From positions 1 to 43,196 of IMG/VR virus record IMGVR_UViG_3300043496_000031: a DNA stretch of 43,196 nt, one strand, 5' to 3'. A program made the position numbers and the translations under genes. How positions within the stretch are numbered: the stretch's first letter is position 1; the number at the start of each line of letters is the position of its first letter. This document shows, in pieces, positions 32,559 to 35,545 of this stretch. The notes beneath the pieces are model-generated. The model searched no databases. It was not told the origin of the DNA and saw only the letters and a program-made list of their open reading frames with translations. The DNA comes from a virus.

Positions 32559-32912
32559 TCAGCTATTCACCACCTGTGAGGGCTCTACCCAAAATCTGCC
32601 TTCGTCTGCTTGTTCCACGTTGCCCACACCAGCGAGTCGGTAGTGCCACAGGCCGGGCACCGTGACTCGGTGGTTGGCGTAGAAGCGTCCGGCCGCCTCT
32701 TGCGCCAGCGCCGGAGTGCCAGCGGGCCAGCTATACGTGGTGGGGTTGACTTCCGACTCCGGTGGGGGAACCACCGTCAGAGTCGCTGAGGTTGGATTGG
32801 TGGCCGTTCCCGCCACGTCCGTGAAGGCTCCCGCGCCTTCGATCCAGGTGGGATTGCCCAACGGCACCACGTCCATGATCTGGTACTTCGGTACGTCTGC
32901 GCTGATCGGCAT
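32559..32912 (-). CDS. Small Ig-like virion protein
   Basis: 117 residues, beta-rich, with VPGLWHYRLAGVG and EGRFWVEPS near the C-terminus. This V-P-G-x-W-x-Y-R-x-x-G pattern followed by E-G-x-F-x-V is common in short Ig-like phage structural proteins next to fibre genes. It lies between the repeat adhesin and the papain-like peptidase, touching both. A decoration or appendage role is inferred. Confidence 0.65.
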   Translation of the reverse strand: MPISADVPKYQIMDVVPLGNPTWIEGAGAFTDVAGTATNPTSATLTVVPPPESEVNPTTYSWPAGTPALAQEAAGRFYANHRVTVPGLWHYRLAGVGNVEQADEGRFWVEPSQVVNS

Positions 32913-35545
32913 CAGAGCCCACTCACTTTCCCGGAACCGACTCCGACTCCACCCATCGTCACACCAGAGCGTAACCGTACCGCTCCGCCGCTCCCCACAG
33001 CCATCCCGGCCACGCCCGCACCCACGAGTCCACGATCCGGGCCAGCGCCCACGCCTACATCCCCAGGCTGGCCCACAATCTCTCCCCGGAGCGTGGCCGT
33101 GAAGCTCGTAGAGCTAGCGCCCGTGAGCCCACCCGCCAGACGGCTGTAGACGCGCCCGTTCAGGCTGGTGAGGCTGCTTCCCGTGAAAGCTCCGGACTGC
33201 CGGTACCGCGCCCGTGCGGCCAGGAGCGTAGTGGCACCAGCGGGAAAAGCGCCCGTGCTACGAAGGCGGAGGCGTGAGCTTAGTTGCGCGGTTCCTGCGC
33301 CCGCGGCACTGATCGTGCCAACTCGCTTGACTCGCGTCTGCGTGAAGACGGCGGAGACGCCGATGGCCGTGATCGTGGCCCGCGTGCGTACCGTGGCCGC
33401 GAAGCTCGTAGCGCCAGCGCCCTGAAGGTTGCCGCCTCCCTGGCCCGGTGGTGGCCGGTAGGTGACCGTGACGGCGGAGGATCCCGCGCCAGCTACCGCG
33501 ATGGTGTTGCGGAGGCGGAGCCGCCTGGTGAGGTTGGTGGAGCCCGTGCCTGTGGCCGTGATCGTGACGGCGTACCGCGTACGAGCTACCACGTTGGCCG
33601 TAGAGCCGCCTGTGGATGCAAATGAGGCAGGGAGCCTCATCCGTACGGTAACCGCGCTAGCGCCCGATCCTGACGCACTCAGGGTGGCATTGCGCTTGAG
33701 TCGGACAGCCACCGTGACGGAGCCCACGCCCGTAGCCGTCTCCGTGGTGCGCCACCGGATCCTGGCTACGTAGCTGGAGGTACCCGCGCCCGTGGCTGCC
33801 AGGGGAAGCCGCCAGCGTGGGTAGGCAGAGACGTTGGTGGAGCCTACGCCCGCACCGTAGAAGCTGATCCCTGGCCCGGTGTAGCTGGCCGTGAGGCTGG
33901 TAGAAGATGGCCCGGTGGCCGTGATCGTGGCCGGGAGTCGCTGCCTCCCCGCGAAGCTGGTAGAGCTACCGCCCGTAGCGGCTGTGGTAGCTTGCCAGCG
34001 CACACGGGCCACGAAGCTCGTACTGGCGGCTCCGGCAAAGGTGCCGGTGTTCCGTTGCCGCTGCCTGGCCTGGAAGCTCGTAGTCCCCGCGCCCGTCAGG
34101 GCTCCGGTGTTCCGCTGTCGCTGGCGTGCGGTGACAGATGAGCTACCGACTCCCGCAGCGGTGATGGTGGCCCGCTGCCTCTGGCGTACCGTGACAGAGG
34201 TTGCGCCCGCACCGGCCGCAGAGATGATGGCCCGGTGGCGCGGCGCGGTAACGAAGCTGGCAGACGCCGCACCCGCAGCCGTGATCGTGGCCTGGATCGC
34301 AGACGTGGTGGACTCGAAGGCGACGGAGTCGAATGCTGCGCCATCGAAGTCTTCATCCGCTGGCGGAGGGCCGGTGTCCAGCTTGTAGACCAGCGCAATT
34401 TCGCCCCATCCCGTAGAGCCGCTGACTACGGTGGTGGCGGTATACGTCGCGCCCGAAGATGGAGCTACATCCTTCGTGGCAACGTGGACGGGCATCCCGG
34501 AGCCGCCCACGTACGGCTGATACGAGCGGGCGGTATACCCGGACGCTGGGCTTACCGCCTGTCCCCATCCGGAATCCCCATAGATGGCGAATGCCAGTAC
34601 GCCTCCGGTGGGAACGTTCCCGCTGGTGGTAGCCGATGGGCTAGAGCTACTTGCCGCCCCTGTACCGGATGCGCCAACGGGACTCGCGGTAGTGTCGAGT
34701 CCCTTTATCTCCAGCGCACAGATCGTCCCGTACCCGTTCGCAGAGAGGGTGACGGTAATGGTTGGATTCGCGGCGGGTGCGCTCCCGCCTACGTTCGTCT
34801 CCCAAACCTTTAGCTGGCCATTGTCGCTGGCCGTGAGAACCGTAGCGAGTGGAGTCCAGGTGAATCCCTGACTGTCCGCCAGCGTGCCGGTACCCGACCA
34901 TGTTTGAGTAACAACCAGGATCTTGTTACCGGGAGTCCAGTTAGCCGGTAGCTGGACAGAGACGGAGCCAACGCTACCCGTGGCCCCTTTGGCGTGTGCC
35001 TCCTGGACGTAAACCAGCGGCAGATCACCACCGGCCCAGGACTCGAACCGGCCGCCGGTATTGGCGTAGAAGCCCAATCCAGGCTGGCCGGACGTAATGG
35101 AGGAGTCGGTCACCGTCAGGACGGTGGTGCCGTTCAGTACCGCCCGGATCGTAGCCGGGCTATTCCCGTCAACCTCAATCCTGGCTGTGTCGCCTACCGC
35201 GACTCGTCCAGACGGAGCGGAGCCAACGGTACTCCAGGAACCATTGACGGTCTTTTCGATATTGTTGTAGCCGGAGCCTACCTCCTGACTCCAGGCATAG
35301 CGGGTGTTGGCTCCGTTCGTCGCCATCCGCACGGCAACGGATAGCTCTCCGCCTCCGGCGGATACAACGGCTTCGCTGTATTGATGCTCGGAGAAGGTGT
35401 CCGCATTCCAGTAGATTTCCTGGCCGTTGGCGTTGGACGTGCCAAGATCGGAGCTACTGAAGAGAGACAGCCCCATCCCGGACTCCAGGGGAGTCCAGTT
35501 GGAGCCTAAAGAGGCACGCTCAAAATCGTCGGAGCGGCTTACCAT
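32912..35545 (-). CDS. Large repeat adhesin with two lectin-like domains
   Basis: 877 residues. Residues ~5-175 are a concanavalin/LamG-like domain opening with DDFERASLGSNW and closing with a GQPGLGFYANTGGRFESW segment. Residues ~178-395 form a second beta-sandwich (YVQEAHAKGATGSVGSVSV to GEIALVYKL). Residues ~416-820 consist of about 20 tandem ~20-residue repeats, then a Gly/Val-rich tail. No membrane segment. The repeats probably make an extended fibrous or solenoid stalk that presents the lectin head for host glycan binding. Start ATG has only a weak purine site. Confidence 0.85.
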   Translation of the reverse strand: MVSRSDDFERASLGSNWTPLESGMGLSLFSSSDLGTSNANGQEIYWNADTFSEHQYSEAVVSAGGGELSVAVRMATNGANTRYAWSQEVGSGYNNIEKTVNGSWSTVGSAPSGRVAVGDTARIEVDGNSPATIRAVLNGTTVLTVTDSSITSGQPGLGFYANTGGRFESWAGGDLPLVYVQEAHAKGATGSVGSVSVQLPANWTPGNKILVVTQTWSGTGTLADSQGFTWTPLATVLTASDNGQLKVWETNVGGSAPAANPTITVTLSANGYGTICALEIKGLDTTASPVGASGTGAASSSSPSATTSGNVPTGGVLAFAIYGDSGWGQAVSPASGYTARSYQPYVGGSGMPVHVATKDVAPSSGATYTATTVVSGSTGWGEIALVYKLDTGPPPADEDFDGAAFDSVAFESTTSAIQATITAAGAASASFVTAPRHRAIISAAGAGATSVTVRQRQRATITAAGVGSSSVTARQRQRNTGALTGAGTTSFQARQRQRNTGTFAGAASTSFVARVRWQATTAATGGSSTSFAGRQRLPATITATGPSSTSLTASYTGPGISFYGAGVGSTNVSAYPRWRLPLAATGAGTSSYVARIRWRTTETATGVGSVTVAVRLKRNATLSASGSGASAVTVRMRLPASFASTGGSTANVVARTRYAVTITATGTGSTNLTRRLRLRNTIAVAGAGSSAVTVTYRPPPGQGGGNLQGAGATSFAATVRTRATITAIGVSAVFTQTRVKRVGTISAAGAGTAQLSSRLRLRSTGAFPAGATTLLAARARYRQSGAFTGSSLTSLNGRVYSRLAGGLTGASSTSFTATLRGEIVGQPGDVGVGAGPDRGLVGAGVAGMAVGSGGAVRLRSGVTMGGVGVGSGKVSGL
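33085..34300 (-). repeat. About 20 tandem ~60-bp coding repeats in the adhesin
   Basis: Each unit encodes roughly A-T-I-x-A-x-G-A-G-x-T-S-F-x-A-R-x-R-x-R. Clear examples are AIISAAGAGATSVTVRQRQR and NTGTFAGAASTSFVARVRWQ. Units are 19-25 residues and diverged at DNA level, though the stretch encoding T-S-F is nearly constant. Divergence argues for an old, selected array and not a recent slippage tract. Confidence 0.85.

Follow-up and report, generated by a model that had tools for sequence, protein, structure and literature searches.

A 20-residue repeat array with a predicted beta-solenoid fold in a putative phage virion appendage protein is probably a divergent subtype of a repeat common in phage structural proteins

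What is the degenerate 20-residue repeat that fills much of a large viral protein, is it new, and what might it do on a phage particle? These questions are raised by a gene in IMG/VR virus record IMGVR_UViG_3300043496_000031, which we analysed over positions 1-43,196 (this whole stretch of 43,196 nucleotides is hereafter the window). A reading made from the DNA letters had called the gene product an adhesin with a repeat of no known name, a short version of which would recur in the tail hub. By its gene content the window comes from a tailed phage: it encodes a tape measure and has genes for the head and for packaging. Its terminase shares at most about 48-50% identity with those of known phages (including uncultured, Brevundimonas and Microcystis phages). 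The tape-measure protein (11917-15018, minus strand) has an M23 peptidase domain close to its C-terminus (E 8e-33), and a gene for a ParB-like protein (24651-25505, minus strand) lies between the portal and head protease genes. A gene for a peptidase-type protein (31676-32557, minus strand; phrog_16701, E 2.9e-13) stands between those of the array protein and the terminase; L149, one of the array-bearing loci described below, has a homologue of it. The features that concern the array are collected in Table 1.

Table 1. Coordinates of the array gene, its parts and related features in the window
Feature	Coordinates	Strand	Basis or remark
Array protein, 877 aa, putative virion appendage	32912-35545	-	Intact ORF, period 20
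N-terminal domain, residues 2-175, possibly a concanavalin-type beta-sandwich	35021-35542	-	Inference, no family match
Second domain, residues 176-395, beta-rich by look	34361-35020	-	Similarity to L159 not significant
Array, 20 units x 20 residues, residues 419-826, predicted beta-solenoid with arginine ladder	33068-34291	-	
C-terminal tail, residues 827-877, Gly/Val-rich, after array	32915-33067	-	ORF translation
Two small genes, no family match	35991-36536 and 35558-35989	-	Between phrog_240 gene and array gene
phrog_240 protein, 133 aa, category head and packaging	36542-36943	-	PHROG match
Short array version, about 4 units, in the 2475-aa tail hub protein (2145-9572)	3921-4187	-	Unit profile

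The domains that precede the array (residues 2-395) had no family match. When residues 176-395 were compared with the domain that stands before the array in locus L159, the similarity was weak and not significant (E 0.046 for a single comparison). A lectin-like N-terminal domain common to the array protein and the hub protein was also suspected, and was rejected as not significant (E 0.0074-0.046, hhalign 0.5%). The labels "adhesin" and "host-binding" would apply to the array protein by resemblance only.

Autocorrelation of residues 406-835 gave peaks at 20, 40 and 60, flanked on both sides by small shoulders at a distance of 2 residues, and the 20-residue period reached z = 15.3 in comparison to 200 shuffles of equal composition. 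The array consists of 20 units of exactly 20 residues with small insertions near residues 559 and 703. About 20 degenerate units of this length had been claimed for the gene, at residues ~416-820; the number and the period proved right, and the extent is corrected to residues 419-826. The unit consensus is A-T-I-T-A-T-G-A-G-S-T-S-V-T-A-R-x-R-x-R, in which the first glycine of the G-x-G turn is present in 19 of the 20 units and the second position is occupied by G (11/20), S (6/20) or A (3/20). Arginine or lysine occurs at three alternating positions at the unit end (14/20, 18/20 and 12/20), and basic residues are found almost only there. The units, together with the predicted strands described below, agree with the earlier description, in which short strands, a turn at Gly and basic ends recur regularly. 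Over its 408 residues, the array contains 44 Arg, 2 Lys, 0 Asp and 2 Glu, a net charge of +44 or +2.2 per unit.

Full-length units share 35% pairwise residue identity. At identical residues, the same codon is used in 38% of cases, compared to 32% expected from codon usage, indicating that the DNA of the array has almost fully diverged while the protein pattern was kept. DNA identity between successive 60-base steps ranges from 28 to 70%, and Tandem Repeats Finder detected no DNA repeat at the array. The pattern is old and maintained at the protein level, and recent expansion is not its source.

No match to the window array was found in Pfam, PHROG, NCBIfam or PDB sequences, and the repeat is not described in the open-licence literature that we searched. 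Searches of phages by tblastn with the whole protein and with the array returned nothing, the array alone not even at E 10, presumably because low-complexity masking hides it. Scans with single proteins and with the terminase found no close relative of the window array. Exact patterns of the window's unit type returned, in successive scans, one chance locus, 46 chance loci, none, one chance genome contig (rejected, as its reading frame is closed) and then locus L175, to which we return below.

A wider pattern gave a different picture. In viral contigs, we searched for pairs of G-x-G-x-L-[ST]-A motifs placed 20 codons apart, a pattern reminiscent of phage tail proteins, and obtained at least 120 loci. 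Among the matches listed, 67 ORFs carry arrays of G-x-G-x-[LVIM]-[STQ]-A at spacing 20, and a single protein holds up to 35 motif copies. The consensus of this class is xxAxLxGxGxL[ST]Axxxxxxx. Members with a confirmed 20-residue period include MEP401 gp59 (annotated "tail protein"), prophiFSQJ01-1 gene 72 ("minor tail protein"), an MW202462 protein ("serine-rich adhesin") and Magritte 27 ("hypothetical"). None of the 17 class proteins scanned passed a Pfam cut-off within the array; three (in L084, L103 and L110) match the DUF2807 Pfam model at about 1e-4, just below the cut-off, and some members match phrog_23524 and phrog_31951, both of unknown function.

Several individual members show how the unit is used. 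In the L057 protein (6060-8714, minus strand), a short array adjoins a calcineurin-like phosphoesterase domain, an arrangement in which the array may be a linker to the enzyme. The L180 protein of MW202462 (14983-15813) adjoins a phrog_240 homologue and has an exact 20-residue period (z = 12.5) nearly without G-x-G motifs; the coil seems able to do without the turn motif. The gene for Roseobacter phage CRP-5 gp55 (L183, 2112-2936; 274 aa) likewise adjoins a phrog_240 homologue. Its units, such as GTGSSIFLSNKVRP, look close to the window's type, and the protein also contains a distinct short repeat of period 8, for example SGDTRITE.

Is the window array a member of this class? Six-unit segments from the window and the class form a 46-row alignment in one register and without gaps, and hhalign matched the window to the class at 91.1% (88.0% when L175 was left out). 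This fit was equalled by 0 of 150 column permutations, and by 6 of 150 when both glycines were held fixed; taken by itself, the profile match therefore falls short of proof. The L-[ST]-A that follows the turn in the class is absent from the window units, which have T-[SN]-[VFL]-x-A in its place. The array of L175, found with the window's own unit pattern, contains GAGGTTFNAT, GAGATSFTAT and GVGGTNFTAV in register among standard units. Since the window units do not have L-[ST]-A and L175 nevertheless mixes both unit types, we describe the window array as a variant rather than a plain member, and class it as a divergent subtype of this repeat, which is common in phage structural proteins. An independent origin, with the two arrays having converged on a 20-residue beta coil, would account for the profile columns other than the glycines fitting best at a two-residue shift, for the equal scores of the 6 of 150 permutations that kept the G-x-G, and for the failure to find a close relative. 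We consider convergence unlikely, however, given the in-register mixture of both unit types in L175, the phrog_240 neighbour that the window and the class have alike, and the intermediate-looking units of CRP-5 gp55, itself encoded beside a phrog_240 homologue. The earlier claim that no named repeat has this consensus and that the unit is new is thus upheld as regards curated families and not supported as regards novelty, the unit being a subtype of a repeat found in many phages.

To model the fold, we used AlphaFold2 with two different inputs. A window segment with the class alignment gave a pLDDT of 78 and a pTM of 0.64, with a pair of strands in each unit that meet at the G-x-G turn; three window segments without the class gave identical strands (pLDDT 70, pTM 0.64). 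No segment fell below pLDDT 50 in these models. We consider it very improbable that biased composition produced the pattern and that the array is a low-complexity spacer, flexible and mostly disordered. Its composition is indeed biased (A, G, S, T and R), and the empty tblastn search fits low-complexity masking, but the exact 20-residue period stands far outside shuffles of equal composition, the protein pattern was kept while the codons diverged, and the pLDDT of every modelled segment is at least 50.

The class profile, compared with the PDB, reached structures of the DUF2807 type (3jx8, E 1.8e-6; 4opw, 2.1e-5; 3lyc, 2.7e-4), and in structure comparison 4opw, 3lyc and 3jx8 superpose on the models (112-114 residues, 2.7-3.1 A, Z 7.2-7.6), with Z values that fall in the range reached by common repeats in such fold searches. 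CsgA, RTX beta-rolls and SufB/D are among the other best-aligning solved structures. The window array alone matched neither DUF2807 nor any PDB sequence, and a Foldseek search of the PDB alone had no hit with E under 0.001. In BFVD, the best match is an uncharacterised Caudovirales protein (prob 1.00, TM 0.88), and a lower match equals CRP-5 gp55 in organism and length. The array fold is predicted to be a beta-solenoid, an assignment made chiefly because sequence (through the class profile) and structure agree on DUF2807. Of the new solenoid proposed by the sequence-only reading, the models predict the solenoid; its novelty is not supported, as the repeat is a subtype of the phage class, whose profile reaches DUF2807.

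Because AlphaFold2 was run as a monomer, these models are also compatible with an obligate trimer. Phage fibres are mostly trimers, and interlocked strands occur in many phage and adenovirus fibres. In such a fibre, the strands of three chains would interlock as a triple beta-spiral or triple beta-helix rather than form a single-chain solenoid; strand-turn-strand units with a conserved Gly turn would fit a beta-spiral as well, and the pLDDT of the models is just 70-78. We nonetheless judge a trimeric fibre to be quite unlikely, as the monomer models from the two inputs agree, the class profile leads to DUF2807 proteins, which have solved structures that match the models, and the constant unit of 20 residues, with few insertions, is in keeping with a solenoid.

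The same unit occurs a second time in the window. Scored with the window unit profile, hub residues about 1796-1884 reached 54.1 bits, while the best of 2000 shuffles reached 27.4; overlapping pieces of the hub that contain this segment or its edge scored 51.7, 41.8 and 13.9 bits and, these aside, nothing in the other large proteins of the window exceeded 9.2 bits. A two-unit DNA pattern had two matches in the window, one in the array gene and one in the hub gene, with 0.00 expected. Reuse of the unit in the hub, previously placed at 3935-4170, is therefore confirmed and located more exactly (Table 1). An Ig/FN3-like domain comes after the short array. The hub protein (minus strand) also combines GH5 cellulase-type (E 4e-19) and GH16 glucanase-type (E 9e-10) domains in one chain with an FN3-like stretch, and the tail tip thus bears two polysaccharide-degrading domains.

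The array gene also has a constant neighbour. In the window, a phrog_240 gene lies upstream of it on the same strand, with two small genes between. Of 38 loci that contain both, 31 have a phrog_240 homologue at most 2.5 kb upstream of the array gene on the same strand, and the two often abut. Of the array-bearing records, 40 of 50 contain phrog_240, compared with 0 of 46 viral controls (Fisher p = 7.6e-18, which is only a guide, as the records are not independent lineages). Among records shorter than 20 kb, the counts were 18 of 21 array-bearing and 0 of 28 control. The phrog_240 model matched 1 of 14 control genomes, that of Methanosarcina acetivorans.

We infer that the array protein sits in the virion. 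As phrog_240 is filed as a head protein and the array gene is found upstream of the terminase and apart from the tail genes, the protein could be a head (capsid) fibre or decoration rather than a tail adhesin, a placement that would be compatible with a solenoid stalk. The phrog_240 category (head and packaging) and the position of the array gene after the major capsid gene in C72C1, Magritte and MW202462 favour the head. On the other side, the array gene of a Mycobacterium abscessus prophage is located among minor tail genes, before the lysin, MEP401 gp59 is annotated as a tail protein, and the unit of the array is also present in the tail hub of the window. A place on the head thus has real weight, although we lean away from it.

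Taken together, the product of this gene is likely to be an appendage protein of the phage virion, with a rigid beta-solenoid as its C-terminal half, and a divergent variant of a widespread, unnamed phage repeat class. Each 20-residue unit would form one coil, its two strands connected by the G-x-G turn. The rise of a beta-solenoid is about 0.48 nm per coil, and a stalk of 20 coils would be roughly 9-10 nm long; it may hold the N-terminal domains (residues 2-395) away from the particle. The three alternating arginines of each unit would line up, coil upon coil, as a positively charged ladder on one face, and this basic ladder may bind an acidic host surface polymer or pack against another part of the virion. 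Short versions of the array, as in the hub and the L057 protein, would serve as rigid spacers inside larger proteins. As a whole, the class would stand near the DUF2807 "head GIN" domain, its members being encoded alongside a phrog_240 protein. More speculatively, tailed phages may share an undescribed virion module made of the phrog_240 protein and a modular 20-residue beta-solenoid stalk, with the arginine ladder of the window subtype as a polyanion-binding surface used twice per virion, in the appendage and in the tail hub; we offer this as a tentative proposal that may well not hold.

Receptor-binding and decoration proteins of phages are poorly annotated, in part because such repeats are masked as low complexity. 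Here, many virion-type proteins of phages turn out to use one 20-residue unit, which has a constant gene neighbour and no curated family. The profile, the neighbour rule and the predicted fold provide an annotation handle for many "hypothetical" proteins, and the named members in MEP401, Magritte and prophiFSQJ01-1 make the role of the repeat directly testable. The window array, an unusual variant rather than something wholly new, was a useful clue to this class.

Among known systems, the RTX beta-roll likewise builds each coil from two strands (Z about 8-12 in the fold match), whereas the window protein has no RTX Pfam match and its array, with 0 Asp and 2 Glu, cannot carry the acidic calcium-binding nonapeptide of RTX given only two acidic residues in 408. 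CsgA/curli (8enq) is the top fold match (Z 13.2 and 12.3) and has two strands per short repeat, but its rmsd to the window models is near 8 A at 10% identity and the window protein has no curlin Pfam match; the likeness of the modelled array to CsgA would be one of fold only, at high rmsd. DUF2807 or "head GIN" (PF10988; 3jx8, 4opw, 3lyc, 3pet and 3ljy) is matched by the class profile at spacing 20 and not by the window alone; it is a bacterial domain of limited length, and the window protein falls short of its Pfam model. A DUF2807 protein of Porphyromonas gingivalis was reported to affect attachment and biofilm (PMC10949514). As DUF2807 proteins are also termed "putative adhesins", adhesion is a fair guess for the phage proteins, and no more than that. 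With the G-x-G-x-L-[ST]-A class, the window array has in common the 20-residue unit, the G-x-G turn, the alternation, the register and the phrog_240 neighbour. The class has L-[ST]-A where the window has T-S-[FV]-x-A, followed by Arg at three alternating end positions, and its median charge is 0 compared to +2.2 per unit in the window, a level that only 1 of 39 class segments reaches.
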